Translations under genes and position numbers: made by a program
Notes under the pieces: model-generated
The model's input: only the letters and a program-made list of their open reading frames with translations
What the model was told of the DNA's origin: nothing
Databases searched by the model: none
Origin: Desulfobulbaceae bacterium
Lineage (GTDB): Bacteria; Desulfobacterota; Desulfobulbia; Desulfobulbales; SURF-16
NCBI GenBank assembly: GCA_002868945.1
Contig: PKTX01000045.1
Span: forward strand, 1 to 39,401
Direction of reading: 5' to 3'
DNA: 39,401 nucleotides
Part shown: piece by piece, positions 7,897 to 37,142 of the stretch
Layout: every line of letters starts with the position of its first letter
Position numbering within the stretch: the stretch's first letter is position 1

Positions 7897-8120
7897 AGAA
7901 GGTAGAGGAGTTAGAGAAGGTAGAGGAGTTAGAGAAGGTAGAGAAGGTAAAGAAGGTAAAGAAGTTAGAGGAGTTAGAGGAGTTAAAGAAGGTAAGGGAG
8001 ATAAAGAAGGGAGAGGAGGTGTAGAAGGTGCAGAATGAAGGCGTGAGAAGGGAGTTCCAGGGGATGTTTACATTCTCTAACTTCTTTACCTTCTCTAACT
8101 TCTCTAATTTCTCTAACTTC
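7894..8120. repeat. Family A inverted repeat, copy A4 (16 purine 9-mers and 6 pyrimidine 9-mers)
   Basis: From the TAG stop at 7894 the sequence reads as about 16 consecutive 9-bp words (TAGAGAAGG, TAGAGGAGT, TAAAGAAGG and variants) to about 8037. A short core with GGCGTGAGAAGG and GAGTTCC follows, then six inverse 9-mers at 8067-8120. It could form a long RNA hairpin between the dehydratase and enoyl reductase genes. Confidence 0.85.
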
Positions 8121-8129
8121 TGATCAGAA

Positions 8130-8930: not shown

Positions 8931-8965
8931 TTTTTGCCACGGAAATGAATGATTTAAGAATAGAA

Positions 8966-9092
8966 AGAAGGTAGAGGAGGTAGAGGAGGTAGAGGAGATG
9001 TGGAAGGAAGGCGTGAGAAAGGAGTTCCGGGGGTATATTCTCTACCTTCTTTAACTCCTCTACCTTCTTTAACTTCTTTCTTTATCTTCTGT
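8966..9092. repeat. Family A inverted repeat, copy A5
   Basis: A purine arm with GGTAGAGGA words (about 8966-9000), a core GGCGTGAGAAAGGAGTTCC shared with copy A4, and a pyrimidine arm (about 9036-9092) ending 6 bp before the oleA start. Confidence 0.8.
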
Positions 9093-9098
9093 TGTCCC

Positions 9099-10133: not shown

Positions 10134-10984
10134 TGGTCCATGCGGCGCAGTATCCCTTCAGCCCCAAATCCCTCACCATTAACGGCCACAAACTCTCCTA
10201 CCTGGATGAGGGCCGGGGGCCGGTGCTGGTCATGCTGCACGGCAATCCCTCCTGGTCGTACCTCTATCGCAATCTGGTCAGGCGGCTGCAAGGTCGTTTT
10301 CGGCTTATTGTGCCGGATCACATGGGCTGCGGTTTGTCTGATAAGCCGCAGGAGTATGACTATAGCCTGGCCACCCATATTGCCAATCTCACTGCCCTGC
10401 TGGATCATCTCGGTCTGGAAAAATGCAGTCTGGTGCTCCATGACTGGGGCGGTGCCATCGGCATGGGCTGGGCCGTGGACCACCCCGGCCGGCTGGAGAA
10501 GATCTGTGTCTTCAATACAGCCGCCTTTCTCTCCAGCCGTATGCCTCTACGCATTGCGCTGTGCCGCGTTCCCCTCCTGGGCCGGCTGATTGTCCAGGGG
10601 TTGAACGGCTTTGCCCGGCCGGCAATCTCCATGGCGGTGACCAAAAAGATGAGCAAAGAGGTGGCTGCCGGCTTCCTGTTGCCCTATGACTCCTGGGCAA
10701 ACCGCATTGCCACCCATCGCTTTGTCCGGGATATCCCCCTGAAAAAATCACACCCCAGCTGGCCGGTGCTGGCCCGTATCGACGCGAAGCTCGCCACCCT
10801 GCGGCATAAAGAGATGCTTATCTGCTGGGGCGGCAGGGATTTTTGTTTTAATGACCACTTCCTGCACGAATGGCAGCGCCGTTTTCCGGCGGCCCACTGC
10901 CACTACTTTGCCGAGGCCGGCCACTATCTGCTGGAGGATGCCTTTGACGAGGTGGCCCCCCTGGTGGAGAATTTTTTTGTCTAA
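10133..10984 (+). CDS. oleB: OleB, beta-lactone decarboxylase (alpha/beta hydrolase)
   Basis: A 283-residue alpha/beta hydrolase related to haloalkane dehalogenases. The oxyanion motif is HGNPSW (residues 36-41), the nucleophile is Asp104 in LHDWGG, the acid is probably Asp236 in GGRD, and the base is His264 in EAGHYLLED. In the Ole pathway OleB removes CO2 from the cis-beta-lactone to give the cis-olefin. An aspartate nucleophile instead of serine fits that family. The ATG shares a base with the oleA stop (TAATG), so the two are translationally coupled; the TTG two codons upstream is less likely. It is a separate gene, not the OleBC fusion found in some actinobacteria. Confidence 0.92.
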   Translation: MVHAAQYPFSPKSLTINGHKLSYLDEGRGPVLVMLHGNPSWSYLYRNLVRRLQGRFRLIVPDHMGCGLSDKPQEYDYSLATHIANLTALLDHLGLEKCSLVLHDWGGAIGMGWAVDHPGRLEKICVFNTAAFLSSRMPLRIALCRVPLLGRLIVQGLNGFARPAISMAVTKKMSKEVAAGFLLPYDSWANRIATHRFVRDIPLKKSHPSWPVLARIDAKLATLRHKEMLICWGGRDFCFNDHFLHEWQRRFPAAHCHYFAEAGHYLLEDAFDEVAPLVENFFV

Positions 10985-11330
10985 CGGTGGGGCACCAGGT
11001 GCATGGGCAAGGTTCAACAAGAGGGAAGAGGTGAGAGGTGAGAGGTGAGGCACGGCATTGCGAGGGGAGCGTGGCAATCCAGGGGATTGATGGTGAGGAG
11101 TTAGGGGTTAGGAGAGAGGAGAGAGGGGTGCGTTGCGCGTGTCGAAACGCCCTTCGACAAGCTCAGGGCGCCTTGTCGCGCGACGATGGGCGGCAGCACT
11201 GGTGTGCCGCACCCCGTCATCTGCCTCGCCTCCCTCTTGTACCTTGGACCTTGTACCTTGGACCTTGCCCCTTGCCCCTTGCCCCTTGCAGCTTGCCCCT
11301 ATTAAAGATTGAAAGAGAAGTGTAGCCTCT
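10985..11330. other. oleB-oleC intergenic region filled with repeats
   Basis: A 346-bp gap without a gene. It holds a family D composite repeat (about 11005-11300): purine heptamer words (AGAGGTG), a segment related to the widespread repeat CATTGCGAGGGGAGCG...GCAATCC (11054-11082), the core GCGTTGCGCGTGTCGAAACG (11130-11149) followed by CCCTTCGACAAGCTCAGGG, and a right arm of CCTTGGACCTTG words. The oleC start has only a weak upstream GAGAAG. Confidence 0.75.
11005..11300. repeat. Family D composite repeat, copy D1
   Basis: Arms of CAAGGTTC/CCTTG-type heptamers flank the core word GCGTTGCGCGTGTCGAAACG. The same core, with small changes, lies inside similar arms at 15550, 23062 and 36562. Confidence 0.7.
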
Positions 11331-12956
11331 ATGAATTTTAATATTGCCCAGACCCTGGCTGATGTGGCGAGCCGGCGGCCTGACGAGATTGCCCTGATTC
11401 AGGGGCGGGCCGGCCACTATAGCCGCTGCACCTTTGCGGAGCTGCGCGCCTGTACGGCCCGTTATGTCAGTGCCTTGCGGGGCCAGGGGATTGGTCCCGA
11501 CCGCCGTGTCATGCTCATGGTGCCCCCTTCGCGGGATTTTGTTGCCCTGACCTTTGCCCTTTTCAGCCTGGGTGCCACGGTGATCCTCATTGATCCGGGC
11601 ATGGGCTACAAAAACCTGCTGCGCTGTATCGGCGCGGTGAAGCCCGACGTGTTGATCGGTATTCCCAAGGCGCAGATCTTCAAGCTCCTCTTTCCGCGTC
11701 CCTTTAAGAGCATCACGGGCAGGGTCTGTGTCGGCAAATCCCTGGGCATTCTCGGCGCCTCGCTGGCGGAGATAAGCAGGTCGGTTGCCCCTGATCCGGC
11801 TGTTTTTGCGGCAGGACGCGATGATCAGGCAGCCATTATCTTTACCACCGGTTCCACCGGCCCGCCCAAGGGAGTGCAGTATACGCACGGCATCTTCCAT
11901 GCCCAGCTTGAGCTGATCCGGAGCCATTATCAGATCGGTCCGGGCCAGGTTGATCAACCGGCTTTTCCGCTTTTTGCCCTCTTTTCCACGGCTTTGGGCG
12001 CCACGGCAGTGCTGCCTGACATGGACCCGGCCAAACCGGCCCGGGTGGATGCCGAAAAGTTTGTCCGTTCCCTGCTGGACCAGGGTGTCACCTACTCCTT
12101 TGGCTCGCCTGCCATTTGGAATGTGGTGAGCCGCTATTGCCTGGATAAGGGCATTGTCCTGCCGGTGAAGAAGATTCTCATGGCCGGGGCGCCGGTGGCC
12201 GGTGAGCTTATTGAAAGGGTCCTTGCCACCATGGCGGCCGGCGGCGAGGTCCATACCCCTTACGGCGCCACCGAATGCCTGCCCATTGCCTCCATGACCG
12301 GTTCGGAGATCGTTGGGCAGACCTGGCCCCTGACCATGACCGGCAAGGGCACCTGCGTCGGGCGGCCCCTGCCCGGTCTTAGCATCCGCATCATGCAGGC
12401 GGCTGATCGACCGGTGGAACGCTATCATCAGGTCGTCATTCTGCCTCCCGGTGAAATCGGCGAGATCATTGTCAAGGGGCCGGTGGTGACCAGGGCCTAT
12501 GACAATAATCCGCAGGAGAACAAGGCAGCCAAGATCCGGGATGGTGATTCCTTCTGGCATCGCATGGGCGACATGGGCTATTTTGATGAGCAGGGGCGCC
12601 TCTGGTTCTGTGGCCGCAAGGCCCATCGGGTCTTGACCCGCAACGGACCGCTTTATACCATTCCCTGTGAGGCGATTTATAATGTCCATGCCAAGGTCTA
12701 TCGCACGGCCCTGGTGGGTGTGGGCCGGCCGGGGAAGCAGATACCGGTGCTCTGTGTCGAATGTGTGGATAAAAGGTGTGATACAGAGAGACTGGCCCTG
12801 GAGCTGCGCGCCCTGGGTGTGCAGAATAAAATGACCAAAGGTATTGATCACATCCTCTTTTATCCGAAATTCCCGGTGGATATCCGCCATAATGCCAAGA
12901 TATTCCGGGAGAAACTGGCAGTCTGGGCCGCCAAGAAGCTGGCTAAAGAACGGTAA
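11331..12956 (+). CDS. oleC: OleC, beta-lactone synthetase (AMP-dependent)
   Basis: A 541-residue member of the ANL adenylating superfamily. Motifs seen: the phosphate loop FTTGSTGPPKG (171-181), YGATE (311-315), GDMGY (413-417), GRKAHRV (428-434) and the C-terminal lysine Lys523 in RHNAKIFRE. OleC adenylates the beta-hydroxy acid made by OleD and closes it to a beta-lactone, which OleB decarboxylates. The assignment rests on its position between oleB and oleD and on the FTTGSTGPPKG loop. Ordinary acyl-CoA synthetases share the fold, so context carries much of the weight. It is separated from oleB by a repeat-filled gap rather than coupled to it. Confidence 0.9.
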   Translation: MNFNIAQTLADVASRRPDEIALIQGRAGHYSRCTFAELRACTARYVSALRGQGIGPDRRVMLMVPPSRDFVALTFALFSLGATVILIDPGMGYKNLLRCIGAVKPDVLIGIPKAQIFKLLFPRPFKSITGRVCVGKSLGILGASLAEISRSVAPDPAVFAAGRDDQAAIIFTTGSTGPPKGVQYTHGIFHAQLELIRSHYQIGPGQVDQPAFPLFALFSTALGATAVLPDMDPAKPARVDAEKFVRSLLDQGVTYSFGSPAIWNVVSRYCLDKGIVLPVKKILMAGAPVAGELIERVLATMAAGGEVHTPYGATECLPIASMTGSEIVGQTWPLTMTGKGTCVGRPLPGLSIRIMQAADRPVERYHQVVILPPGEIGEIIVKGPVVTRAYDNNPQENKAAKIRDGDSFWHRMGDMGYFDEQGRLWFCGRKAHRVLTRNGPLYTIPCEAIYNVHAKVYRTALVGVGRPGKQIPVLCVECVDKRCDTERLALELRALGVQNKMTKGIDHILFYPKFPVDIRHNAKIFREKLAVWAAKKLAKER

Positions 12957-12981
12957 GAGGGTTTCAAAATAGACGGTTTTT

Positions 12982-13054
12982 TTCAACACAAGACACAGAG
13001 ACACAAAGGGTGTAAGGACAGGAACTCTTTGTGCCTCCGTGTCTTTGTGTTGAA
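12982..13054. repeat. Family B inverted repeat without gene (empty site)
   Basis: Left arm TTCAACACAAGACACAGAG... (12982-13009) and right arm CTTTGTGCC...GTGTTGAA (13027-13054) are near-perfect inverse complements with a loop of about 17 nt. The words are the same 8-mers that flank the GxxExxY gene at 6048-6443. It lies between oleC and oleD. Confidence 0.85.
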
Positions 13055-13104
13055 AGAAGAGGGTGATTGCCCCCTTTTTTTGTTACGCGAGAGGTTGGTG
13101 AAGA

Positions 13105-14103
13105 ATGAAAAACGTGCTGGTAACAGGGGGCGGGGGCTTTATCGGCCTCGGTATTGTCCGGGCCCTGGCGAAAACGGGGGTGCGCACCGTGGTGGTGGGC
13201 CGCCATCGTTACCCGGCCGTTGAGGAGGCCGGTGCCCTTTGCCTGGTGGGTGACATCCGCGACCGGGACTTCATGGTCCGCGCCTGTAATAATATCGACA
13301 CGGTCTTTCATGTGGCGGCCAAGGCCGGGGTCTGGGGCAGATGGCACGACTATTTTTCCATCAATGTCAAGGGCACGGAGAATGTCCTGGCTGCCTGCCG
13401 CCACAATCAGGTGGCTAATCTTGTCTATACCAGTACGCCCAGTGTGGTCTTTAATCGTGGTCATCTGCGCGGCGTGGATGAGAGCGCCCCCTATGCCGAC
13501 AATGTCCTCTGTCATTACGCTCGCAGCAAGATCATGGCTGAAATTCTCGTCTTACAGGCCAACAGTCCGCAGCTGCGGACCACGGCCCTGCGGCCCCACC
13601 TGGTCTGGGGGCCGGGTGATACCAATCTCATCCCACGCCTTTTGGCCCGCGGTCGGGCCGGCAGCCTGCGCATTGTCGGTGATGGCCGTAACAAGGTGGA
13701 TATTTCCTATATCGATAACGTGGTGGATGCCCATATCCAGGCCGCCAATAACCTGGAACATTTCGGCACGGCGGCCGGCGAAGCTTTTTTCATCTCCCAG
13801 GGGGAGCCGGTCAGGCTCTGGGAGTGTATCAACGATCTCTTTATGCAGCTGGCCATGCCGCCGGTGGCTCGCTCCATCAGTTTCAACAAGGCCTACAGGC
13901 TCGGCTTTGTCATGGAAAAGCTCTACGGTCTCCTTGCCGTAAAGAGTGAGCCCCGCATGACCCGTTTTCTGGCGGAGCAGCTCGCCAAGTCCCACTGGTT
14001 TTCCATTGCCAAGGCGCGTCGCATCCTGCCCTATGAGCCCAGGGTCTCCACTGAGGAGGGGATGCGACGTCTGGTGACCTGGGTGCGTGGAGGAGGGCTG
14101 TGA
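13105..14103 (+). CDS. oleD: OleD, NAD(P)H-dependent 2-alkyl-3-ketoacid reductase
   Basis: A 332-residue extended short-chain dehydrogenase/epimerase-fold protein. The cofactor loop is TGGGGFIG (7-14), the active site is Tyr138/Lys142 in HYARSK, and TSTPSVVF lies at 109-116 (Ser110/Thr111 are the likely catalytic hydroxyls). GWXXR-type substrate residues are not obvious. OleD reduces the beta-keto acid from OleA to the beta-hydroxy acid. GAGG lies about 9 nt before the ATG. The next gene begins inside its last codon (GTGA overlap). The family and the order oleA-oleB-oleC-oleD make this assignment strong. Confidence 0.92.
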   Translation: MKNVLVTGGGGFIGLGIVRALAKTGVRTVVVGRHRYPAVEEAGALCLVGDIRDRDFMVRACNNIDTVFHVAAKAGVWGRWHDYFSINVKGTENVLAACRHNQVANLVYTSTPSVVFNRGHLRGVDESAPYADNVLCHYARSKIMAEILVLQANSPQLRTTALRPHLVWGPGDTNLIPRLLARGRAGSLRIVGDGRNKVDISYIDNVVDAHIQAANNLEHFGTAAGEAFFISQGEPVRLWECINDLFMQLAMPPVARSISFNKAYRLGFVMEKLYGLLAVKSEPRMTRFLAEQLAKSHWFSIAKARRILPYEPRVSTEEGMRRLVTWVRGGGL

Positions 14104-15764: not shown

Positions 15765-16859
15765 ATGGAATCACTGGTAATCAAAGCAGGACTGGGCGAT
15801 ATTCTCGATAAGGTTAAAAGAGCTGAACGCATCACCAAGGAGGAGGCCATTCGTCTCTATGAAAGCCCGGACCTGCTGGCCGTGGGCTATCTGGCCAACA
15901 TGGTGCGCGAACGCAAGAATGGCGATAAGGCCTATTTCATCTACAATCAGCATGTCAACTACTCCAACATCTGCACCAATCTCTGTAAGTTCTGCGCCTT
16001 TGGTAAGGAAAAGGGCACTGACAAATCATACGAGATGACGGTGGAGGAGGCCGTCGGCAAGGTGCGTGATCGCCTTGATGAGCCGATCACCGAGGTGCAT
16101 ATGGTGGGCGGCATTCATCCGGATCTGCCCTTTTCCTACTACACCGATATTTTGAAGGGCATTAAAGAGGTGCGGCCCGACATTCATGTCCAGGCCTTTA
16201 CCTGTGTGGAAATCGATCACCTGGCCAAACTGGCCGACAAGCCGGTGAAGGAAACCCTGGAGATCCTCATGGCAGCGGGCCTGGACTCCATCCCCGGCGG
16301 CGGCGCCGAGGTCTTCAGCTCCAGAATCCGCGAGAAGACCTGCCCGGACAAGCTCTCCGGCCAGGGCTGGTTGGAGGTGGCCAAAACGGCCCATCGCCTG
16401 GGCCTGAATACCAATGCCACCATGCTCTACGGCCATATCGAGACCATTGAGGAACGCGTTGAGCATCTGGCCGCCCTGCGCGAGGCCCAGGATGAGACCG
16501 CCGGCTTTCTCGCCTTTATCCCCCTGGCCTTTCATCCCAAGAATACCAAGATGGATGATCTGTCCCGCACCTCCGGGGTGGATGATCTGAAAAATATCGC
16601 TGTTTCCCGCATCTTTCTGGACAACTTCCCCCACATCAAGGCCTACTGGGTTATGATCGGCCCCAAGCTGGCCCAGGTGGCCCTCTCCTTTGGTGCGGAT
16701 GACGTGGATGGTACGGTGAAGGAGGAGATAATCACCCATATGGCCGGCGCTGATACCGAACAGGCCATGGCCATCCCGGAACTGGTGCGCATCATCAAGG
16801 AGGCGGGCCGCACCCCTGTCCAGCGCGGGACCTTGTATGATGTGATTAAGGAATATTGA
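15765..16859 (+). CDS. mqnE: Aminodeoxyfutalosine synthase MqnE (radical SAM)
   Basis: A 364-residue radical SAM enzyme of the menaquinone futalosine pathway. The iron-sulfur cluster motif is C70-x3-C74-x2-C77 in NICTNLCKFCAFG. GGGAE lies in the middle, as in MqnE and MqnC, and the C-terminal HMAGADTEQ...GRTPVQRGTLYD distinguishes MqnE from MqnC. It joins 3-(1-carboxyvinyloxy)benzoate, the product of MqnA, to SAM-derived adenosine, giving aminodeoxyfutalosine. It is followed after 198 bp by mqnC and the rest of the pathway genes on the same strand. The ATG lies about 30 bp after a TTGAACC array. The assignment is confident. Confidence 0.95.
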   Translation: MESLVIKAGLGDILDKVKRAERITKEEAIRLYESPDLLAVGYLANMVRERKNGDKAYFIYNQHVNYSNICTNLCKFCAFGKEKGTDKSYEMTVEEAVGKVRDRLDEPITEVHMVGGIHPDLPFSYYTDILKGIKEVRPDIHVQAFTCVEIDHLAKLADKPVKETLEILMAAGLDSIPGGGAEVFSSRIREKTCPDKLSGQGWLEVAKTAHRLGLNTNATMLYGHIETIEERVEHLAALREAQDETAGFLAFIPLAFHPKNTKMDDLSRTSGVDDLKNIAVSRIFLDNFPHIKAYWVMIGPKLAQVALSFGADDVDGTVKEEIITHMAGADTEQAMAIPELVRIIKEAGRTPVQRGTLYDVIKEY

Positions 16860-17057
16860 TTTTTTAGAAATCAGAAATCAGGATTCAGGAGTCAATGTCC
16901 GTAATGGAGGCATCCATAATCTCCCTTTCCCCCTGGGAGAAGGTCGCGATGAGGGTGGAAACGACATTGAACCAGGAAGTCGGAAATAAAAAAAAAACAC
17001 TCTGAGCCGGTCTCTTTGTTTGTGTGGCGAGGGCTGGGAGGGTTTGAGAAATAAAAA
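16860..17057. other. mqnE-mqnC spacer with repeat fragments
   Basis: A 198-bp spacer without a gene. It contains a single arm of ATCAGGATTCAGGAGTCA type (16870-16895), related to the hairpin at 32799-32874. It also contains CCCTTTCCCCCTGGGAGAAGG (about 16922-16942), a word like the common intergenic repeat of the CTCTCCCNNNGGGAGAGGG kind. GGGAGGG lies about 19 bp before the mqnC start. Confidence 0.5.
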
Positions 17058-18107
17058 ATGCAAGAATTAAGAGCGAAAATATTGGACGGTGGTCGTATCT
17101 CCGAGGAGGAGGGCGTCAGGCTCTTCCAGGAGGGCAGCCTCTTTGATCTCGGCATGCTGGCTGATGAGATCCGCAAGCGCAAACACCCGGAGCCCATTGT
17201 CACCTATGTCATTGATCGTAATATCAACTACACGGACATCTGTGTCTCGGCCTGTAAGTTCTGCGCCTTTTACAAGGCGCCGGACGATGCGAACGGTTCG
17301 GTGCTCTCCCTGGAGGAGCTTGGCAAAAAGATCGAAGAGACCCAGCGTCTGGGCGGCAACCAGATTCTGCTGCAGGGTGGTCTCCATCCTGATCTGAGCC
17401 TGGAATTTTACGAGGATATGCTGCGCTTCATGAAGGGGTACGGCGTTCATGTCCACGGTTTTTCACCCCCTGAGGTCATGCATTTTGCGGCGGTTTCCGG
17501 TAAACCCATGCCCGAGGTCCTCATCCGTCTGCAGCGCGCCGGTCTCGACTCCATTCCCGGCGGCGGTGCCGAAATCCTCACTGATCGGGTCAGGCAGGAG
17601 AGTGCCCCCAGAAAGTGCACGGCCGATGAGTGGCTTGCCGTCATGGAAGAGGCCCATCGTCAGGGAATGCGCACCACCGCCACCATGATGTTCGGCCATG
17701 TGGAGAGCATTGCGGAACGGTTGGAGCACCTGCGGCGACTCCGTGACCTGCAGGACCGCACCCATGGCTTTACCGCCTTTATTCCCTGGCCCTTTCAGCC
17801 CGATAATACGGTGTATGACGGCATGGCCAAGACCACCGGCCATGAGTATCTGAAAATGCTGGCCCTGTCGCGTATCTTTCTGGATAATTTTGATAATATC
17901 CAGGCCTCCTGGGTGACCCAGGGGCCTAAGATCGCCCAGGTCTCCCTCTTCTTCGGGGCCAACGATTTCGGCTCCACCATGATCGAGGAGAATGTGGTGG
18001 CAGCGGCCGGCGTCAGCTTTCGTCTCTCCGAGGAGGAGATCCGCAAGCTGGTGAGTGGCGTGGGTATGACACCCAGGCAACGTCGGATGGACTATACGCT
18101 GGTCTGA
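17058..18107 (+). CDS. mqnC: Dehypoxanthine futalosine cyclase MqnC (radical SAM)
   Basis: A 349-residue radical SAM enzyme. The cluster ligands are C62-x3-C66-x2-C69 in DICVSACKFCAFYK; the Tyr after CAF is typical of MqnC. GLHPDL and GGGAE follow, and the C-terminal GMTPRQRRMDYTLV is the MqnC ending. It cyclises dehypoxanthine futalosine to cyclic DHFL, the step that builds the second ring of the naphthoate. The next gene starts 2 bp after its stop, so the operon continues. It is clearly a paralogue of the neighbouring mqnE but not a recent duplicate. Confidence 0.95.
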   Translation: MQELRAKILDGGRISEEEGVRLFQEGSLFDLGMLADEIRKRKHPEPIVTYVIDRNINYTDICVSACKFCAFYKAPDDANGSVLSLEELGKKIEETQRLGGNQILLQGGLHPDLSLEFYEDMLRFMKGYGVHVHGFSPPEVMHFAAVSGKPMPEVLIRLQRAGLDSIPGGGAEILTDRVRQESAPRKCTADEWLAVMEEAHRQGMRTTATMMFGHVESIAERLEHLRRLRDLQDRTHGFTAFIPWPFQPDNTVYDGMAKTTGHEYLKMLALSRIFLDNFDNIQASWVTQGPKIAQVSLFFGANDFGSTMIEENVVAAAGVSFRLSEEEIRKLVSGVGMTPRQRRMDYTLV

Positions 18108-18109
18108 TC

Positions 18110-19288
18110 ATGGCGATTCTGCACCGTGCCCCATGGGTTTTGCCGATTAGTGCGCCGCCTGTTGTTGATGGGGCGGTTATGGTTGAGAACGGCATGATCG
18201 TCGCGGTGGGACCATACCGGCACCTGCGCCATGGGAAGCACGCCCGGCTGGTGGAGCATGAGGGCCGTATATTGCTACCGGCCCTGCTCAACTGTCATTG
18301 TCATCTGGAGCTGAGCGGCTGCGCGGCAATGACCGACAGAGAAGTGGCTCCCGCCCATATGCCGGCCTGGATCACCGAACTCCTCGCCCTGCGCGCCAGC
18401 CGTTCCGGTGAGGATGACACCTCCCTGGCCTGCGCCGTCCTGGCGCGCCAACATGCTGACGGTGTCGCTCTGCTGGTGGATATCGGCAATGGTCTGCGGC
18501 CTGCCGCCTCCTGCCATGACATGACCCGGGTTGATTATTACACCGAACTGCTTGGCCTTTCCAGACAGGCCACCCTCCTGGCCCTGCAGGTCATGCAGGA
18601 TCATGATGACGGTCATAACTTTACCTGCCATGCCCCCTATTCCACCAGCGCCGCGCTGTTGCAGGCCGTCAAGGAGAGGGCCGCACTGCTCCGGCGCCTC
18701 TATCCTCTCCATGTCGGTGAATCCCTGGATGAGGTGGAGTTCCTGGCCACGGGCCACGGCCCTTTCCGCAGCTTTTTGGAGGAGCGCGGTGTCTGGGACG
18801 GCAGCTTTGCGGTGCCGGGCTGCGGGCCGGTTGCTTATCTGGAACGGCTTGGTCTCCTTGATGAGTTGACCCTCTGTGTGCATTGCCTCCACCTTGATGA
18901 GGCGGAGATCGACCTGCTGGCCCGAAGAAGGGCCGGAGTCTGTCTCTGTGCCGGCTCAAACCGTTTTTTGGGGGTGGGGCGGGCCCCGCTGGCCGAGATG
19001 CTGGCTGTCGGCCTCAAGCCCTGTCTGGGCACCGATAGCCTGGCCAGTAATCCGCGCCTTTCTCTGTGGCGCGAAATGAATATCCTGGCCGACGACCACC
19101 CGCAGCTTGATCCCGCCCTTATCCTGGCCATGGCTACCTGGAACGGTGCCGAGATTGTGGCCCGGTCGGAGCTGGGCCGGTTGGCGCCGGGCGGCAGCGC
19201 CCACTTTATTGCGGTGGCATATGAAGGGTCGTCACCCCTTGAGTTCCTGGTACGGGAGCCGCATGTCAAGGACGTTTATTGGGTGTGA
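18110..19288 (+). CDS. mqnX: Amidohydrolase, probable aminodeoxyfutalosine deaminase (MqnX-like)
   Basis: A 392-residue metal-dependent amidohydrolase of the SAH/adenosine deaminase-like group. The metal and catalytic residues are His63 and His65 in NCHCHLE, His174 in CHAPYST, His201 and Glu204 in HVGES, His258 in CVHCLH, and Asp309 in GTDSLASN. In the futalosine pathway such an enzyme deaminates aminodeoxyfutalosine to futalosine. Its place between mqnC and mqnA strongly supports that role. The pathway would then need a futalosine hydrolase (MqnB), which is not in this window. Other amidohydrolase substrates (SAH, guanine) are possible by family alone; the context makes MqnX the best call. 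Confidence 0.82.
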   Translation: MAILHRAPWVLPISAPPVVDGAVMVENGMIVAVGPYRHLRHGKHARLVEHEGRILLPALLNCHCHLELSGCAAMTDREVAPAHMPAWITELLALRASRSGEDDTSLACAVLARQHADGVALLVDIGNGLRPAASCHDMTRVDYYTELLGLSRQATLLALQVMQDHDDGHNFTCHAPYSTSAALLQAVKERAALLRRLYPLHVGESLDEVEFLATGHGPFRSFLEERGVWDGSFAVPGCGPVAYLERLGLLDELTLCVHCLHLDEAEIDLLARRRAGVCLCAGSNRFLGVGRAPLAEMLAVGLKPCLGTDSLASNPRLSLWREMNILADDHPQLDPALILAMATWNGAEIVARSELGRLAPGGSAHFIAVAYEGSSPLEFLVREPHVKDVYWV

Positions 19289-28096: not shown

Positions 28097-29161
28097 CTAC
28101 TGCACTTTTTTGAGCAGTTCTTTGGCCTTGGTGGCCTGTTCCGAGTCGGGATAGTAGGTGAGTACGTCTGTATAGAGTTTGCGCTGCACCATCTTGTCGC
28201 CGAAATGTTCAAAGGCCTCAGCCTGTTTGAGCAGGGCCTCGGGGGCCTTGGCGTGGTCGGGATAATCCGCCACAATATTCTGAAACTCCAGAACAGCACC
28301 GCTGTAATCGCCGCTGTTTAAGAGGCTGGCGCCGAGCCAGAAACGGGCGTCCGCCACCAGACCTTTGTTATCCCTATATTGATCCAGGAAGGAGGTGAAG
28401 GTGGTGATCGCCTTTTTGTACTCTTTGCTGCGGTAGTGGCCAAGGCCGGTGTCGAAGAGTTTTTCCGCCGCGCTTTTGTCAACGGACGGTTCCGAGGAGC
28501 CTGACGTGCTTTGTGCCGGTTTGCTCTGGCCGCTCGGGGCTGCGGCGGCCTCATCCTTTGCCACCTTGTGGGTGCGCGGGGTCAGCTCCTTGGTCCTGGA
28601 ACTTGATGCGGCGGCACTCTGCCGGGCTGCCGCGGCCGCTGCGGCCCGACGCCTGGCCTCTTCTGCGGCCCGGACGGCCTCTTGCGCCCTCTTTTCGGCC
28701 TCTGCCGCTATTTTTTCCTTGATGGCGGCGATATTTTCCTCAAGTTCGGCGATTTTGGCGACATTCTTCCGGTTGGTTGCCGCCAGCTGCTGATTGGCTG
28801 CCTCCAGGTTGAGCAATCTGTTGTCGAGTTCCTTCTGGAGCCGCAGATTCTCTTCCTGTAACTGTTGGCTGTGATGGCGTGATTCATCCAGTTGTCCCTG
28901 GATCTGCAGCATTTCAATGTTCAGGTTCTCAAGTTCACTGGCCAGACTTGCCTGTTGTTTCTGGAGGGACTGGGTGGCGCTGATACCGCCGCTTGTCACC
29001 TGGTCGATCTGGTTTTCCATGCCCACCAGACGATTGTCGATATTACGGACGTTGAGTTGCATGCTCCGGAACTGCTTGCTGGTGACACAACCGGACAGCA
29101 GGGCGGCGGAGCAGAGGAGCAGGGCTGTACGCAGCAGGATTTTTTTTGTCATGGCATTCAT
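28097..29161 (-). CDS. CpoB/YbgF-like lipoprotein of the Tol system
   Basis: A 354-residue protein. The N-terminus is a lipoprotein signal, ALLLCSAALLSGC with Cys25 as the lipidated residue when ATG 29161 is used. A coiled-coil region rich in Gln, Glu and Leu follows (about 45-160), then an Ala/Arg-rich linker. The C-terminal TPR-like domain (about 230-354) starts LFDTGLGHYRSKEYKKA, with LDQYRDN and NSGDYSGAVLEFQN, as in CpoB/YbgF. CpoB links Tol-Pal to peptidoglycan synthesis during envelope constriction. E. coli CpoB is soluble in the periplasm, so the lipid anchor differs. AGG lies 8 nt upstream of ATG 29161; a TTG at 29215 gives a longer N-terminus and is less likely. It is the last gene of the tolQRAB operon. 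Confidence 0.85.
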   Translation of the reverse strand: MNAMTKKILLRTALLLCSAALLSGCVTSKQFRSMQLNVRNIDNRLVGMENQIDQVTSGGISATQSLQKQQASLASELENLNIEMLQIQGQLDESRHHSQQLQEENLRLQKELDNRLLNLEAANQQLAATNRKNVAKIAELEENIAAIKEKIAAEAEKRAQEAVRAAEEARRRAAAAAAARQSAAASSSRTKELTPRTHKVAKDEAAAAPSGQSKPAQSTSGSSEPSVDKSAAEKLFDTGLGHYRSKEYKKAITTFTSFLDQYRDNKGLVADARFWLGASLLNSGDYSGAVLEFQNIVADYPDHAKAPEALLKQAEAFEHFGDKMVQRKLYTDVLTYYPDSEQATKAKELLKKVQ

Positions 29162-29215
29162 GGTGTGGCCTGGGTGTAAGGTGAGGGCGGCAATCGTAAT
29201 TTTTTTAACTGACAA

Positions 29216-30568
29216 TTAGTAAAAATTCAACCGTTGCGACCATTGCGGACTTGTCTGGTTACCGTTGAGTACAAAGAGTTGGCGCAGCCACTGGCCGTCA
29301 CTGGTGATTGTGCACAGTCTGCTTTCGCCGTTTCTCGTTCTGGTAAAGGCTATCTGGCGTGAGTCGGGCGACCAGGTCGGCGACTCGTGGCTGCCCCAGG
29401 AGGCGGTAAGCTGGATTGGCGTGCCGCCGGCTGCCTTGATCTTGTAAATCTGATAGCCGTCATCGCCGCGGCCGGTGTAGGTGATCCACTCACCGTCCGG
29501 CGACCAGCTCGGCGTCGTATTTTCATTGCCTTGATAGGTGAGGCGTTTTGTTCGATTGCCGTCAAGATCCATGGTGTATATCTGCGGATCTCCGCTACGG
29601 TCGGAGACAAAGGCAATCTGGCTGCCGTCCGGTGAAAAGGTGGGAGAAACATTGATGCCGGCATTGACCGTCAACCTCTTGATGATGGTGCCGTCCAGCC
29701 GCATCTTGTAAAGATCGGGGTTGCCGTCCTTGCTCAGGGTCACCACCAGATAGGAGCTGTCCGGCGCCCAGGCCGGCGCATAGTTGATTCCCTTGCGACG
29801 GGAAATGGCGCGGGTCAGGTGGCTCGATTTTTTGAAATCAACGAGGTAGAGATTGGCATTGCCCTTGTGGTAAGAGGTGTAGGTCAGTTTACTGTTGTCC
29901 GGTGACAGGCGCGGTGTTATGGCCAGATGGCCATGTCGGGTGACCTGACGAATATCATCGCCCAGGGCATCGGCCAGATAGATCTCCTTGTGGCCGGTGC
30001 CGTCCGAGACAAAGGCGATTTCACTGGAGCTGATGCCCTGCTTGCCGGTGATCTTGTAGATCACCTCGTCACAGAACTTGAGGATCATCTGCCGTTTTTT
30101 GGGCCATGTATCGCGAAATCTCTTGCCCATGAGCATTCTGCCGCTGTTGGTCTCAATGAGGCGCAGCTCCAGGACAAGACGGGCCCCTTCATTGACATAT
30201 TTGCCGAGCACGGCATAGTCCGCCCCCAGCATGCGCCAGTTTTGCTCCTGACCGCCGCCGTATTCTTCCGGGGCTATAATGTTTATGAAACCATGGAATT
30301 CAAGACCTCTGGCCAGAAGATCCGCCATTGACTGGCCAACCTCATGGACCTGTTCGGGCTTGTTTTTGTCAACAAAGTAGGGGACGGCAAAATTAATCTT
30401 CTTGATGGTGGCATCGGTGATATCGATATCAATCACCTGGCGGGCCCGGCAGAGGGAGGCCGGTGTGCAGCAGGCCAGGATGACGAGGCAGAAGATAAAG
30501 GTGCTGGGCAGGAGATTGCGTATGGGCATGACAACTTTATGGTTAATTGGGTGAACTGCTGAAATCAC
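29216..30568 (-). CDS. tolB: TolB, periplasmic beta-propeller protein
   Basis: A 450-residue protein with a signal-peptide-like N-terminus (hydrophobic stretch at about 17-38), an N-terminal TolB domain (IDIDITDATIKKINFAVPYF onward, to about 180) and repeated beta-propeller blades with the words LSPDNSKLTY, APDSSYLVV, FSPDGSQIAFVSD, WSPDGEWITY and WSPDSRQIAF. TolB works in the periplasm between TolA, Pal and the outer membrane. GTG 30568 is chosen because GAAGGA lies just upstream inside tolA and the start overlaps the tolA stop (GTGA); ATG 30529 would give a shorter signal peptide but has no ribosome-binding site. Gene order and domains make this secure. Confidence 0.93.
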   Translation of the reverse strand: MISAVHPINHKVVMPIRNLLPSTFIFCLVILACCTPASLCRARQVIDIDITDATIKKINFAVPYFVDKNKPEQVHEVGQSMADLLARGLEFHGFINIIAPEEYGGGQEQNWRMLGADYAVLGKYVNEGARLVLELRLIETNSGRMLMGKRFRDTWPKKRQMILKFCDEVIYKITGKQGISSSEIAFVSDGTGHKEIYLADALGDDIRQVTRHGHLAITPRLSPDNSKLTYTSYHKGNANLYLVDFKKSSHLTRAISRRKGINYAPAWAPDSSYLVVTLSKDGNPDLYKMRLDGTIIKRLTVNAGINVSPTFSPDGSQIAFVSDRSGDPQIYTMDLDGNRTKRLTYQGNENTTPSWSPDGEWITYTGRGDDGYQIYKIKAAGGTPIQLTASWGSHESPTWSPDSRQIAFTRTRNGESRLCTITSDGQWLRQLFVLNGNQTSPQWSQRLNFY

Positions 30569-31473
30569 ATCATTCCTTCGGGGTAAAAGCGGAGCCGTAA
30601 GGGGGCCAGCGGGATTTCCTGCGGCACCGGCGGCAGGGGTGAGGCCTCTTCAATGGTCTGCATGACGAACTTGTCAAACTGGGCGCTGGCCGATGGTTTT
30701 TCAAAGCTTTTTTTGGTGACAATGCCGTCCTGTCTGATCTCGACAATGACTTCGGCCCGCAGGTCCTTGTGCCAGACCTGCCCCTCCGGCAGGCTCCAGT
30801 GACTGCCGATATGGCGGGCCACCATCGCCTTGTACTGTTTCAGGGCGGTATCAGCGGCCCGACCGCTGCCTGCTGCACCGCCATAGCCAGGGGAAGGACG
30901 CTTCATCTCGGCGCTGCCTTCGCCCGGCAGCTGGTCAGCCGTCGGTGTCTGTTCCGGTTCTGCCTCGGTTTGGGCCGACGGCCTGGTCAGGATCGATTCG
31001 CGAATGGCCTCCAGGGCCCTTTGTTTCTCTTCCTCGGCCTTCTGCTGTTGCTCGATGTGCTGCAGGGCGCCGAGAACCATGCTGGGGTCCATGGGCGGCA
31101 GGCGGATATCCTTTTTCATGGCCCGCGGTCTGAGCAGTTTGATCTCTGAAGGGGCCTTGGGGATGGTACGGGTCGACAGGACGGGCTGGCTGCTCGTGGT
31201 CTGCTCGACTGCGGGGGGCGGCTTCGGTTCCGGGGGCGGCGCCTTGCGTACCTCGGCCGGAGGGGGGGGAGGGGCCTCCTGCAGGTCGATCAGATCCACC
31301 TGATAAACTTCCGGAACATTGCGGCTGAAGTGAAAGAGGGAGCTGGGCAACAGGGCGATGGTGAGAATGATCAGGTGGACGGTGACGGAAAAGAGAAAGG
31401 GTTTTCGCCATCCGTCATCCAGCCACCTTTCCTTGAGGCACTCTCGGGGTGAAAATTTCAGTTGGCCGACCAT
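30565..31473 (-). CDS. tolA: TolA/TonB-family energy transducer
   Basis: A 302-residue protein with one N-terminal membrane helix (about 27-48) and a proline-rich stretch (APPPPPAEVRKAPPPEPKPP, about 66-87). A charged helical region with EEEKQRALEAIRESI follows, then a C-terminal TonB/TolA domain (about 215-300: ARHIGSHWSLPEG, VIVEIRQDGIV, LRLRFYPEG). In the tolQ-tolR-tolA-tolB order it acts as TolA, carrying energy from TolQR to the outer membrane. The central domain is short and proline-rich, so it looks TonB-like; by sequence alone it could be called TonB, but the operon decides. The tolB start overlaps its stop. Confidence 0.85.
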   Translation of the reverse strand: MVGQLKFSPRECLKERWLDDGWRKPFLFSVTVHLIILTIALLPSSLFHFSRNVPEVYQVDLIDLQEAPPPPPAEVRKAPPPEPKPPPAVEQTTSSQPVLSTRTIPKAPSEIKLLRPRAMKKDIRLPPMDPSMVLGALQHIEQQQKAEEEKQRALEAIRESILTRPSAQTEAEPEQTPTADQLPGEGSAEMKRPSPGYGGAAGSGRAADTALKQYKAMVARHIGSHWSLPEGQVWHKDLRAEVIVEIRQDGIVTKKSFEKPSASAQFDKFVMQTIEEASPLPPVPQEIPLAPLRLRFYPEGMM

Positions 31474-31528
31474 ATTAATCTTAAAACCCTTTTCTATAGA
31501 CCAGATTCCTTGCCTGGCAAGCCGCCTG

Positions 31529-31948
31529 TTATCGTTTCTTTTCCACCGGGATGGTCACCATGCCCAGGTTGTCGAATCCCGCCCCTTTGACATCCGCCAT
31601 GACCTGAACCACCAGGCCATACTCCACCTTCTTATCCGCCTTGATCAGGATTGTTCTGCCGCGGTCCTGTCGGCCGAGCTTGTCGAGCTCCTGGCGCAAA
31701 ATTTTGCGGTCGCCTCTGATCTTGTCTATGCCGATATCGCCGTTTTGCTTGATGGTGATGACAATGGGTTTATCATCCTGACGCAGGGCCTTGGCCGTGG
31801 TTTCCGGCAGGTTGACTTCAAGCCCCTCGGTCATCATGGGCGCGGTCACCATGAAGATGATGAGCAGCACAAGCATAACATCGACAAGGGGGGTGACATT
31901 GATGTCCGCCATCAGCCTCTTGTTGTTTTTATTATGCATCATGGCCAT
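31529..31948 (-). CDS. tolR: TolR (ExbD-family) proton-channel subunit
   Basis: A 139-residue ExbD/TolR protein with a single N-terminal membrane helix, NVTPLVDVMLVLLIIFMV, which contains the essential aspartate Asp23, then a periplasmic domain ending GFDNLGMVTIPVE. With TolQ it forms the proton-driven motor of the Tol system. It begins 2 bp after the tolQ stop. Assignment over ExbD follows from the operon. Confidence 0.92.
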   Translation of the reverse strand: MAMMHNKNNKRLMADINVTPLVDVMLVLLIIFMVTAPMMTEGLEVNLPETTAKALRQDDKPIVITIKQNGDIGIDKIRGDRKILRQELDKLGRQDRGRTILIKADKKVEYGLVVQVMADVKGAGFDNLGMVTIPVEKKR

Positions 31949-31950
31949 TT

Positions 31951-32643
31951 CTACTCAGCTCTCCTGGAGATGAAGTCTCTCTCCATCAGGTTGAGAAAGT
32001 CCGCCGAAAAGTTGGCCATCTCGCTTTCGACATCCGCCAGCTTGTTGGAGTAGAAGTTGTAAAAGATAACTGCCGGAATAGCCACGGCCAGACCGGCGGC
32101 CGTGGCCACCAGGGCCTCGGAGATGCCGGGGGCCACCACGGCCAGGGAGGCGGAGCCGTGCGCGCCGATTTCATTAAAGGAGACCATGATGCCCCACACC
32201 GTGCCGAACAGGCCGATAAAGGGAGTCGACGAGCCGGTGGTGGCAAGGAAGGGCAGCGATTTGCTGATCTTGATGCTCTCAATGGCCTCAGCCTTTTGCA
32301 GTACCCGTTTCAGGTTTTCCATGCCGGCCAGGCGCATTTCCAGGGTCTTTTGCTCGTGCTCCCTGGCCCGCTCTATCTTCTGCAGTTCCGTGTACCCGGT
32401 TAAAAATATGCGGCCTTCCGGGCAGGCACTCTCCTGGGCCACCTGTACGGCCTCGGTCAGGGTCCGGCATTTCCAAAAGGTCTTGAGAAAGGTGTGGGAC
32501 TCCTTTTTGAGTTGCTTGAAAAGCATCTGCTTCTGATAGATAATAAACCAGGAGATTCCGGAAAAACAGAGGAGGAGGAGCATGACGAACTTCACCGTGA
32601 AGCCGGCCTGCCAGAAGAGTGAGAAAATATTGATATCCTGCAC
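31951..32643 (-). CDS. tolQ: TolQ (ExbB/MotA-family) proton-channel subunit
   Basis: A 230-residue protein with three membrane helices (about 12-38, 133-155 and 170-195). The segment ATTGSSTPFIGLFGTVWGIM and the following EALVATAAGLAVAIPAVI are the ExbB/TolQ channel signature. It assembles with TolR and TolA in the cytoplasmic membrane. It is the first gene of the operon, so the promoter should lie in 32644-33220 on the - strand; I could not identify it with confidence. Confidence 0.93.
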   Translation of the reverse strand: MQDINIFSLFWQAGFTVKFVMLLLLCFSGISWFIIYQKQMLFKQLKKESHTFLKTFWKCRTLTEAVQVAQESACPEGRIFLTGYTELQKIERAREHEQKTLEMRLAGMENLKRVLQKAEAIESIKISKSLPFLATTGSSTPFIGLFGTVWGIMVSFNEIGAHGSASLAVVAPGISEALVATAAGLAVAIPAVIFYNFYSNKLADVESEMANFSADFLNLMERDFISRRAE

Positions 32644-33220: not shown

Positions 33221-34528
33221 ATGAAGACAATAAATATCGGAATAATTGGTTTCGGCACCGTGGGCAGCGGCACTGCCCAGGTGCTCATGGAACAGAGCCG
33301 GCGTATTACCCGGCGGACAGGGGTCAATATATGCCTGAAAACCGTGTTGGTCCGCTCCCTGCGCCGCCTGCCGGACGAGTTGGCGGATGTCACGGTTACC
33401 TGTGAGCCGGATGACCTCTTTGCTGATCCGCAGATCGACATCATCGTCGAGCTGATCGGCGGTATTGAGCCGGCCCGCAGCTATATCCTCAGGGCCATTG
33501 AGGAGGGGAAACATGTGGTCACCGCCAATAAGGCCCTGCTCTCCCAGTGCGGCATGGAGATCTTCAAGGCCGCGGCCGCCAAGAATGTTGAAATCGGTTT
33601 TGAGGGCAGTGTGGCCGGCGGTATCCCGCTTATCAAGACCTTTAAAGAGGGGCTTGCCGCCAACCGGATCGTCTCCATCATGGGCATCTTGAACGGCACG
33701 GCCAACTATATCCTCACCGAGATGACCGATCATGGCCTGCCCTTTGCCGAGGTCCTCAAGGATGCCCAGGCCAAGGGTTATGCCGAGGCTGATCCCACCT
33801 ATGACATCGAGGGCATTGATACGGCCCATAAACTGGCTATCCTGGTGACCATGGCCTATGGTATTGAGGTCAAGCTGAGCGATATTGCCGTGGAGGGTAT
33901 CAGTCGGATTGATCCCATTGATGTGGACCTGGCACGAGAATTCGGTTATCGCATCAAGCTGCTGGCCATCAGCCGCAACCATGGCGAGCATTTTGAGGTA
34001 CGCGTTCATCCCACCCTGGTGCCGGAATCTCATCCCCTGGCAGCCATCAGCGGCGCCTTTAACTCCGTGCATATCCATGGTGATATGGTGGGCGATATTC
34101 TTCTCTACGGACCCGGAGCCGGTAAGCTTGCCACCGGCAGTGCCGTGGTTGCCGATATTATCGATATCTCGCGCAATATACTGCATGGCGCCATTAACCG
34201 GGTTTCCAGTCTCTCCTATTTGCCGGAGTATATCGAAACCCGGCAGATTACGCCGATCAGTGAGCTGACCTGCCCCTATTACCTGCGCTTCACCACCCTG
34301 GATCAACCCGGCGTACTGGCCACCATCGCCGGTATCCTCGGTAAATACGGCATCAGTATTGAATCGGTGATCCAGAAGGCGAGCCGCAAGAGGGAAGGGG
34401 TACCCATTGTCGTCCGCACCTATGAGGCGCGCGAGGCGGATGTGGTCAAGGCCTTGGCCGAGATCGACAGATTGCCCATTGCGGCGGCGGAAACCGTTAA
34501 GATACGAATTCTGACCCAAGAGGATTGA
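33221..34528 (+). CDS. hom: Homoserine dehydrogenase
   Basis: A 435-residue single-function homoserine dehydrogenase with a C-terminal ACT domain. The N-terminal NAD(P)-binding loop is GFGTVGSG (10-17). ELIGG and TANKALLS follow, and the catalytic region reads GYAEADPTYDIEGIDTAHK, the dehydrogenase signature. The ACT domain (about 350-430: FTTLDQPGVLATIAGILGKY, SIESVIQKA) suggests feedback control by an end product such as threonine. It makes homoserine for threonine and methionine synthesis. It is followed 5 bp later by an ApgM-family gene and then a thioesterase, so the three form an operon. Confidence 0.95.
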   Translation: MKTINIGIIGFGTVGSGTAQVLMEQSRRITRRTGVNICLKTVLVRSLRRLPDELADVTVTCEPDDLFADPQIDIIVELIGGIEPARSYILRAIEEGKHVVTANKALLSQCGMEIFKAAAAKNVEIGFEGSVAGGIPLIKTFKEGLAANRIVSIMGILNGTANYILTEMTDHGLPFAEVLKDAQAKGYAEADPTYDIEGIDTAHKLAILVTMAYGIEVKLSDIAVEGISRIDPIDVDLAREFGYRIKLLAISRNHGEHFEVRVHPTLVPESHPLAAISGAFNSVHIHGDMVGDILLYGPGAGKLATGSAVVADIIDISRNILHGAINRVSSLSYLPEYIETRQITPISELTCPYYLRFTTLDQPGVLATIAGILGKYGISIESVIQKASRKREGVPIVVRTYEAREADVVKALAEIDRLPIAAAETVKIRILTQED

Positions 34529-34533
34529 TTGGC

Positions 34534-35733
34534 ATGAAGACGGTGATTCTGGTGGGCGACGGCATGGGTGATTACGGCCTCACCGAGCTTGGCGGCCAGA
34601 CCATTTTGGAGGCGGCGCACACGCCGAGCATGGATTATCTGGCCGGCCATGGCCGGATGGCCCTGCTGCGCACCGTTCCTCCGGGGATGCTGCCCGGCAG
34701 CGATGTGGCCAACCTCTCTTTGCTCGGCTATCGGGCCGAAGAGTTTTATACCGGCCGTTCCCCCCTTGAGGCCGCCAGTCTCGGCGTGGATCTCGGCCCG
34801 GATGAGGTTGCCTTCCGACTCAACCTGGTCAATATCAAAGAGGAAGAGGGCCGCATGATCATGGTGGATTACAGCGGCGGCCATATCTCCACGGCCGAGG
34901 CCCGGGAGCTGATCGATGCCCTGCAGGCCATTCTTCCCCCGCAGGGCCTGGCCCTGTATACCGGTGTCGGTTACCGGCATCTGCTGGTGGTTGAAGGTGA
35001 TCTGGACGGCCTGGCCACGGTGCCGCCCCATGACTATCCGGATCAGGATGTCACCTCCTTCTGGGACAACTACAGGCAGGTGCCCCTGCTGGCGGACTTT
35101 GTCAACCGGGCCAGGGAGGTTCTCGCCGAGCATCCTGTTAACCAGAGGCGTTTGCAGCAGGGTAAGGTGCCGGCCAACGGCATCTGGCTCTGGGGTGAGG
35201 GCAAGGCACCGGCCATGCTTACCCTGAAAGAACTCTACGGGGTGAGCGGCGCCCTTATCTCAGCCGTGGATCTTCTCAAGGGTATTGCCGTGTACGCCGG
35301 CATGGAGGTGCTGCCGGTCGTCGGCGCCACCGGTTACCTGGATACCAACTATCAAGGCAAGGTGGAGGCGGCCCTGGCGGCAATCGGCCGTCATGATCTG
35401 GTCTTTGTCCATGTTGAGGCGCCGGATGAAACCGGTCACCAGGGACTGCTCAAGGAAAAGATGCAGGCGGTGGAGGACTTTGACCAGAAGATCGTCGGGC
35501 CGGTGCTGGCCGGTTTGAGAAAGCAGGGTGACTTCCGCCTGGTGGTCTGTATGGATCACTTTACCCCCATTTCCCTGAAGACCCACACCACGGACCCGGT
35601 GCCGGTGCTTATCTATGACTCACGGCAGCCGCACGACAGCGGTCTTTCCGCCTACAGCGAGGCAAACGGCCGGGTTGCCGGCGTCTTTTACGAGCATGGC
35701 GGTGAATTCATGAAGGCGGTGCTGGCGGCATGA
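34534..35733 (+). CDS. ApgM-family alkaline-phosphatase-superfamily phosphotransferase, possible homoserine kinase
   Basis: A 399-residue protein of the archaeal-type, cofactor-independent phosphoglycerate mutase family. Asp9 in GDGMGD and the phosphorylated serine Ser56 in PGSDVANLSLLGY are the first metal and catalytic positions; further metal ligands lie in HVEAPDETGH and MDHFTPISLKTHTTDPVP. ATG 34534 follows AGGA at 9 nt; a TTG at 34525 is an alternative. The gene sits 5 bp after homoserine dehydrogenase, and no classical ThrB is seen. Family members in this position have been suggested in genome annotations to substitute for homoserine kinase. Phosphoglycerate mutase activity remains possible. 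The family is certain; the reaction is not. Confidence 0.85.
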   Translation: MKTVILVGDGMGDYGLTELGGQTILEAAHTPSMDYLAGHGRMALLRTVPPGMLPGSDVANLSLLGYRAEEFYTGRSPLEAASLGVDLGPDEVAFRLNLVNIKEEEGRMIMVDYSGGHISTAEARELIDALQAILPPQGLALYTGVGYRHLLVVEGDLDGLATVPPHDYPDQDVTSFWDNYRQVPLLADFVNRAREVLAEHPVNQRRLQQGKVPANGIWLWGEGKAPAMLTLKELYGVSGALISAVDLLKGIAVYAGMEVLPVVGATGYLDTNYQGKVEAALAAIGRHDLVFVHVEAPDETGHQGLLKEKMQAVEDFDQKIVGPVLAGLRKQGDFRLVVCMDHFTPISLKTHTTDPVPVLIYDSRQPHDSGLSAYSEANGRVAGVFYEHGGEFMKAVLAA

Positions 35734-36179
35734 AGAAGCTGCGCATGACCATGGCCGAACCAATGGCCTCAAGTCAGGTTCGTGTTCTCTATGGCGATAC
35801 CGATGCCGGTGGCGTGGTCTATAATGCCACCTATCTTCGCTATTTTGAGCAGGGGCGGGGTGAATTCATGCGTGACTGCGGACTGCCCTATAAAGATCTT
35901 GAGACGAGGGGCTATATCCTGCCCCTGGTGGAAAGCTATCTGCGCTATAAGGCCCCGGCCCGTTATGATGATCTGCTTGATATTGAGACCTGCCTGGCCG
36001 AGCTCACCCCCTTTTCCTGTCGATTCCATTGCCGGGTGAGCAACAGCGCCGACGGCAGGCTGCTGGTCAAGGGCTTTACCCATCACGCCTCCATTAACTG
36101 GCAGGGGAAATTAACGGCGCTGCCCGAGGATGTTATCACGGTGTTGCAGGGCTATCTCTGTAAAGGCCATCTTAAGTAG
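35730..36179 (+). CDS. YbgC-like acyl-CoA thioesterase (hot-dog fold)
   Basis: A 149-residue 4-hydroxybenzoyl-CoA thioesterase-family protein. VLYGDTDAGGVVYNATYLRYFEQGR near the N-terminus holds the catalytic aspartate (Asp23 in GDTDAGG) and the YF-E-R pattern of YbgC. YbgC proteins hydrolyse acyl-CoA thioesters and are commonly encoded with tol genes; here it is linked to hom and the ApgM-like gene, with the start overlapping the upstream stop (ATGA). The substrate is unknown. The reading frame ends at a clear stop, followed by repeats. Confidence 0.88.
   Translation: MKKLRMTMAEPMASSQVRVLYGDTDAGGVVYNATYLRYFEQGRGEFMRDCGLPYKDLETRGYILPLVESYLRYKAPARYDDLLDIETCLAELTPFSCRFHCRVSNSADGRLLVKGFTHHASINWQGKLTALPEDVITVLQGYLCKGHLK

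Positions 36180-37065: not shown

Positions 37066-37142
<77 letters not shown>

Follow-up and report, generated by a model that had tools for sequence, protein, structure and literature searches.

The apgM-type gene that directly follows homoserine dehydrogenase (hom) in the genome of this Desulfobulbaceae bacterium, a member of the sulfur cycle, probably encodes the enzyme that makes O-phosphohomoserine for threonine synthesis, most likely by phosphotransfer. The gene lies in what we call the window, the whole 39,401-nt stretch of contig PKTX01000045.1 that was analysed. A first-pass annotation of this DNA had suggested that the ApgM-like protein may be the homoserine kinase. The assignment to this step is supported by the gene content of the genome, by the presence of thrH in the same slot in relatives and by a relative (G095) in which apgM has been lost. 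On the other hand, "kinase", in the sense of an ATP-dependent enzyme, is probably the wrong word, and phosphotransferase fits better.

A conserved operon of hom, apgM and a thioesterase gene

The three genes run head to tail (Table 1). As the annotation had it, the gap between the end of hom (34528) and the ATG of apgM (34534) is 5 bp, and the ATG of the thioesterase gene at 35730 overlaps the apgM stop by 4 bp (ATGA). The NCBIfam cut-off of PRK06349, which the hom product passed, is 205 bits. No leader or riboswitch was found ahead of hom; the Rfam scan of the window returned one tRNA only.

Table 1. Genes of the hom operon and of the adjoining tol cluster in the window
Feature	Coordinates	Strand	Assignment
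hom	33221..34528	+	Homoserine dehydrogenase with C-terminal ACT domain; PRK06349, 525 bits; Pfam Homoserine_dh, NAD_binding_3, ACT
ApgM-type gene	34534..35733	+	TIGR02535 "proposed homoserine kinase" (ThrB2), 514 bits; candidate homoserine phosphotransferase
Thioesterase gene	35730..36179	+	YbgC/FadM-family hotdog acyl-CoA thioesterase; TIGR00051; probable YbgC counterpart
tolQ	31951..32643	-	Divergent neighbour; TIGR02796, 230.9 bits (cut-off 221)
tolR-like	31529..31948	-	Divergent neighbour; position and conserved order by tblastn
tolA-like	30565..31473	-	Divergent neighbour; position and conserved order by tblastn
tolB	29216..30568	-	Divergent neighbour; Pfam TolB_N and PD40
ybgF/cpoB-type tol-pal protein	28097..29215	-	TIGR02795 tol_pal_ybgF, 98.2 bits (cut-off 90.1)

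The operon call also held beyond the window, with the triplet conserved across the class. Among 31 short-flank loci of the class, the window's own included, hom lay at most 450 nt upstream of the TIGR02535 gene in 30, and the thioesterase gene lay at most 600 nt downstream in 30; the single miss on each side (L040 and L019) falls at a contig end. All three genes were present in 20 of the 20 wide loci of the class, one of which (L089) has 4.7 kb between hom and apgM. This arrangement is far beyond chance. In the named loci, which are the best 80 of 559 relatives, hom was found upstream in 51 (41 of these within 450 nt) and the thioesterase gene downstream in 38. The named loci in this best 80 of 559 include Desulfogranum, Desulfofustis, Geomonas and two archaeal records. 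In wide loci from outside the class, hom preceded the TIGR02535 gene in 8 of 16; as the gene is often away from hom there, members of the family may differ in role. In distant loci, several open frames nearby matched no family in Pfam and NCBIfam scans, which leaves the genes that separate hom from apgM there without a name.

Threonine genes and phosphoglycerate mutases in the genome

The genome of the window is 99.99% complete in 83 contigs. ThrC was found over cut-off on contig C69, away from the hom operon. By contrast, no protein reached the cut-off of ThrB (TIGR00191): the best match scored 54.7 bits against a cut-off of 168.25. A hidden ThrB was rejected because this ThrB-like protein is IspE (204 bits, cut-off 138.7). 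The profile search found no APH-type ThrB, and ThrH (TIGR02137, cut-off 223.4 bits) had no match. The genome thus carries thrC with neither ThrB nor APH-type ThrB nor ThrH over cut-off. The lack of thrB and thrH, proposed as a check in the first-pass annotation, was borne out in this way, and so was the presence of another phosphoglycerate mutase, for the genome encodes two further homologues. One is GpmI, which adjoins thrC on C69 and scores at equivalog level (703 bits). The other is a second ApgM protein on contig C39, which passes TIGR00306 (331 bits, cut-off 320) and falls below the TIGR02535 cut-off at 168.5 bits.

The same profile extends over the class sample of 97 genomes, all from one order. 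TIGR02535 was over cut-off in 90 of them, ThrC in 95, GpmI in 94 and ThrH in 2, while ThrB and APH-type ThrB were over cut-off in 0 of 97. Of 14 control genomes, 11 gave a ThrB score above the cut-off. Seven genomes had no TIGR02535 protein (G004, G034, G062, G063, G069, G078 and G095). Five of the seven have no hom match, the hom of G078 is cut by a contig end, and only that of G095 is intact. In G062 and G069, thrC is present with no hom match and with no TIGR02535, ThrB or ThrH over cut-off, which we count against our reading.

Family membership and residues of the ApgM protein

The ApgM protein is a member of TIGR02535, with 514.1 bits against a cut-off of 446.3 over profile positions 1-396 of 397. 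It also passed the NCBIfam cut-offs of PRK04200 (517 bits, cut-off 426) and TIGR00306, and it is homologous over most of its length to the solved archaeal phosphoglycerate mutases 3kd8 (E 1e-59) and 2zkt (E 3e-56). The residues D9, S56, D298, H302, D341, H342 and H351 are kept across 139 TIGR02535 proteins and are common to 3kd8, 2zkt and the C39 ApgM protein. We take them to be the nucleophile serine and the two-metal ligands of the iPGM family. In its nucleophile and metal-type residues, the window protein is therefore like the archaeal cofactor-independent mutases. Conversely, 21 TIGR02535 columns that are conserved in at least 97% of the 139 proteins differ from both solved structures, in a comparison with three reference sequences (3kd8, 2zkt and the C39 ApgM protein). 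The changes relative to both mutases include R to H117, R to W220 and K to E295, together with invariant D246, D270 and E299. Judged from the alignment, the loss of two arginines and the gain of acidic residues would suit a substrate that is an amino acid in place of the doubly anionic phosphoglycerate. Zinc sites are reported to be conserved in BT2402, a TIGR02535 protein of Bacteroides thetaiotaomicron (PMC9765024).

These data bear on whether the protein is an ordinary glycolytic or gluconeogenic phosphoglycerate mutase that lies after hom by chance. The name speaks for it, being carried by both PRK04200 and TIGR00306 and by the solved relatives 3kd8, 3idd and 2zkt. Nevertheless, such a mutase would be redundant with the GpmI and the second ApgM protein of the same genome, on which ground we rejected it; GpmI is over cut-off in 94 of 97 relatives. 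Neither the conserved adjacency to hom nor the 21 family-specific columns agrees with it, and BT2402 mutants are reported to require threonine in minimal medium (PMC7311316). We therefore regard this explanation as improbable.

Still less probable is that the protein phosphorylates some other small alcohol, for example threonine. A threonine kinase in cobamide synthesis was proposed for the TIGR02535 member Dehre_1608 of Dehalobacter (PMC4285132). For the window protein, this is opposed by the position of apgM after hom throughout the class loci examined, and by the finding of no competing ThrB, APH-type ThrB or ThrH in its own genome.

Exchange of apgM with thrH after hom

We extended the search to a phylum sample of 246 genomes. 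TIGR02535 was over cut-off in 205 of them, ThrB in 2 and ThrH in 16, and one more genome (G325) has thrH in two pieces. The only two ThrB genomes, G100 and G102, contain TIGR02535 as well, a point against our reading. TIGR02535 was over cut-off in none of the 16 ThrH genomes, with G161 near the cut-off (E 1.3e-131). ThrH and TIGR02535 were thus anticorrelated, with a Fisher exact p of 2e-14 over cut-off and of 1.3e-13 when every TIGR02535 match below 1e-100 counts as present, both values ignoring kinship. For the second value the counts, made by hand, were 35 genomes without TIGR02535, 15 of which have ThrH. Eight of the 35 belong to one genus (g91), whose genomes may use another kinase.

The position of thrH was informative as well. 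Of the 17 loci with thrH in the phylum sample (the 16 and G325), 12 have thrH directly after hom, the same slot that apgM takes in the window, and in 7 of these 12 it is followed by the same type of thioesterase; the other 5 of 17 have no hom directly upstream. ThrH identity was at equivalog level in the two proteins checked. In an unrooted tree of 62 homs, the 12 homs that precede thrH formed one clade with a support of 100/100, indicating one event and therefore few independent swaps. Many independent swaps between apgM and thrH were accordingly rejected: within the hom operon the state changed once, in a direction that the unrooted tree does not give, and G095 is a second, separate loss of apgM. 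In G095, hom and the thioesterase gene lie 8 bp apart with apgM gone, and thrH is present elsewhere, outside this operon. G093, of the same genus, has hom-apgM-thioesterase and thrH. Because thrH takes the apgM slot, and because apgM is lost in the thrH-bearing G095, the reading of the ApgM protein as a homoserine phosphotransferase is strengthened.

ThrH has a HAD fold and is unrelated to the ApgM protein. It is reported to use phosphoserine, and no ATP, in making O-phosphohomoserine, presumably by way of a phospho-enzyme (PMC1079889), and this presumed chemistry is like that which we propose for the window protein. A ThrH-like protein was proposed between two threonine genes in Geobacter (PMC2700814). 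Our literature searches turned up no account of an exchange between apgM and thrH after hom.

The exchange also bears on the view that homoserine is phosphorylated by a different protein, either the GpmI encoded next to thrC or an enzyme of the shikimate-kinase-like type known from Desulfovibrio, and that the ApgM protein acts otherwise near the pathway. The gpmI gene next to thrC is a second candidate, which we counted against our reading; GpmI adjoins thrC in 39 of the 49 genomes with that GpmI type. Moreover, a shikimate-kinase-like homoserine kinase is described as proven in Desulfovibrio vulgaris (PMC5764234), and BT2402 is reported not to have rescued an E. coli thrB mutant (PMC7311316); both likewise speak against our reading. 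Yet the GpmI of the window genome is an equivalog-level mutase. Genomes of family f4 keep hom-apgM, whereas their lower-scoring GpmI type lies away from thrC. Furthermore, it is apgM that thrH replaces after hom, while gpmI-thrC persists without TIGR02535 in G062, G069 and G078. We consider a different kinase unlikely, to much the same degree as an ordinary mutase.

A proposed phosphotransfer mechanism

For the ApgM protein as a homoserine phosphotransferase, we infer the activity, the phosphoserine intermediate and the donor as follows. Hom would supply homoserine, the TIGR02535 protein would phosphorylate it, and ThrC, encoded on C69, would convert the product to threonine. A metal-dependent phosphotransferase seems more likely than an ATP kinase. 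Ser56 would take up the phosphate of a small phosphoester, giving a phosphoserine intermediate, and hand it on to homoserine. A phosphoester as the source is predicted from the analogy with ThrH; the TIGRFAM curators proposed a phosphate donor such as phosphoenolpyruvate, as cited in PMC7311316. The chemistry would be a ping-pong variant of that of cofactor-independent phosphoglycerate mutase and a functional parallel of ThrH.

For the family as a whole, we lean slightly towards TIGR02535 proteins having an alkaline-phosphatase fold and transferring phosphate to homoserine independently of ATP, through a phosphoserine and with a phosphoester metabolite as donor. Alongside ThrH, they would then be a second answer of the phosphatase type, and the two could replace each other in the operon slot. 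If this is true, dependence on a particular donor or metal would account for the failure to rescue the E. coli thrB mutant.

The thioesterase and the neighbouring tol genes

The first-pass annotation had called the thioesterase YbgC-like and found it unexplained in an amino-acid operon. The family part of the name stands, with 87.9 bits against the TIGR00051 (YbgC/FadM) cut-off of 68.7; the tol-pal-specific model thio_ybgC (TIGR02799) gave only 81 bits against an equivalog cut-off of 141.35. The copy after hom or thrH passes TIGR00051 in 17 of the 17 genomes searched, and it is the only protein to do so in 10 of the 17, the window's own among them (both counted by hand).

An ordinary candidate explanation is at hand, namely that the thioesterase is the YbgC counterpart of the adjoining tol cluster. 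In E. coli, ybgC is the first gene of the tol-pal operon, and tol genes divergently adjoin the hom operon: hom and tolQ are transcribed away from each other in the window, as they are in 10 of the 20 wide loci from relatives. For these reasons, we consider it probable that the genome's counterpart of YbgC is this thioesterase, set across the divergent promoter region from tol and outside the threonine pathway. It resembles YbgC in its family and in the adjoining cluster, but its score falls short of the equivalog cut-off, its gene overlaps apgM, and it is found after hom-thrH as well. No tol genes were found near hom-thrH-thioesterase within the fetched flanks, which weakens a purely positional reading. 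The thioesterase is independent of the ApgM protein, for it is retained in G095, where apgM is missing. A thioesterase tree (51 rows) had too little resolution to date when the gene joined the operon, but it placed the G095 copy firmly among the operon copies of its own genus.

Relation to published work and significance

The earlier proposal by annotators of a homoserine kinase, to which the first-pass annotation referred, is indeed in print as TIGR02535, in GapMind and as ThrB2, and the hypothesis itself is not new. Among the 148 organisms in GapMind, ThrB is reported missing from 29, and 15 of the 29 have TIGR02535 (PMC7311316). ThrB2 is described as complementary to ThrB in occurrence, with ThrB replacing it in some Bacteroides operons (PMC9026213). 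Like BT2402/ThrB2, the window protein passes the family cut-off, has no classical ThrB in its genome and neighbours homoserine dehydrogenase. In Bacteroidetes, the published operon of ThrB2 includes ThrC and Asd-Hom (PMC9026213), whereas the window gene precedes a YbgC-type thioesterase and sits away from thrC. To this we add comparative evidence of moderate weight: ThrB is missing across the class, apgM and thrH are exchanged in one slot, apgM has dropped cleanly out of the operon in G095, and the thioesterase gene is conserved.

A missing homoserine kinase is among the commonest apparent gaps in the amino-acid pathways of prototrophs. The exchange with thrH suggests a chemistry, phosphotransfer from a phosphoester and not from ATP, and G093 (apgM and thrH) and G095 (thrH only) form a natural gene pair. 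A settled function would mend wrong annotations as "phosphoglycerate mutase" and "threonine auxotroph".

Gene neighbourhood of the hom-apgM-thioesterase operon

The tol cluster beside the operon lacks a ybgC gene upstream of tolQ. In E. coli, pal sits between tolB and ybgF; in the window cluster, this interval holds no separate gene. The cluster order was kept in 10 of the 20 loci of relatives fetched with long flanks, one of these 10 being cut at a contig end. Farther away, MqnE and MqnC matched at 505 and 487 bits, each exceeding its cut-off, and the stretch to which they belong carries futalosine menaquinone genes. Another row of genes resembles an oleABCD long-chain olefin cluster. Its matches to the family models for OleD and for olefin beta-lactone synthetase fall short of the respective cut-offs. 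An Rfam scan of the whole window matched nothing besides a single tRNA gene.

Features of the window, of a locus elsewhere in its genome and of a locus in a relative
Feature	Sequence	Positions	Strand	Remark
KAS III, haloalkane-dehalogenase-like hydrolase, AMP-binding, OleD-like genes	window	9000-14103	+	in a row
MqnE, MqnC, then aminofutalosine-deaminase-like hydrolase	window	15765-19288	+
tolQ-R-A-B-ybgF	window	28097-32643	-	divergent from hom
tRNA gene	window	37069-37142	-	Rfam match
gpmI	L063 (G000:C69)	4522-6090	same as thrC	directly before thrC
thrC	L063 (G000:C69)	6356-7762	same as gpmI	directly after gpmI
hom, apgM and thioesterase genes	L089 (G046)	2710-9869		hom and apgM 4.7 kb apart

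Threonine genes in relatives

In one relative (G046), hom and apgM are separated by 4.7 kb containing an ORF of 732 codons; despite this separation, the thioesterase gene still follows apgM. Two related genomes of family f8 (G062 and G069) have both thrC and gpmI, but neither gave a hom match or a TIGR02535 ("proposed homoserine kinase"), ThrB or ThrH protein over cut-off. ThrB exceeded its cut-off in only 2 of the 246 genomes of the phylum sample (G100:C35 and G102:C78), both also with TIGR02535, a combination that may reflect redundancy, contamination or a different role.

In the genome of the window, gpmI adjoins thrC. Among the 49 class genomes with the same GpmI type, 39 have the two genes adjacent on one strand, with gpmI immediately upstream of thrC. 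A phosphoglycerate mutase gene next to the threonine synthase gene could have a bearing on the phosphate donor, the phosphoester proposed to supply phosphate for homoserine phosphorylation by the ApgM-type protein.
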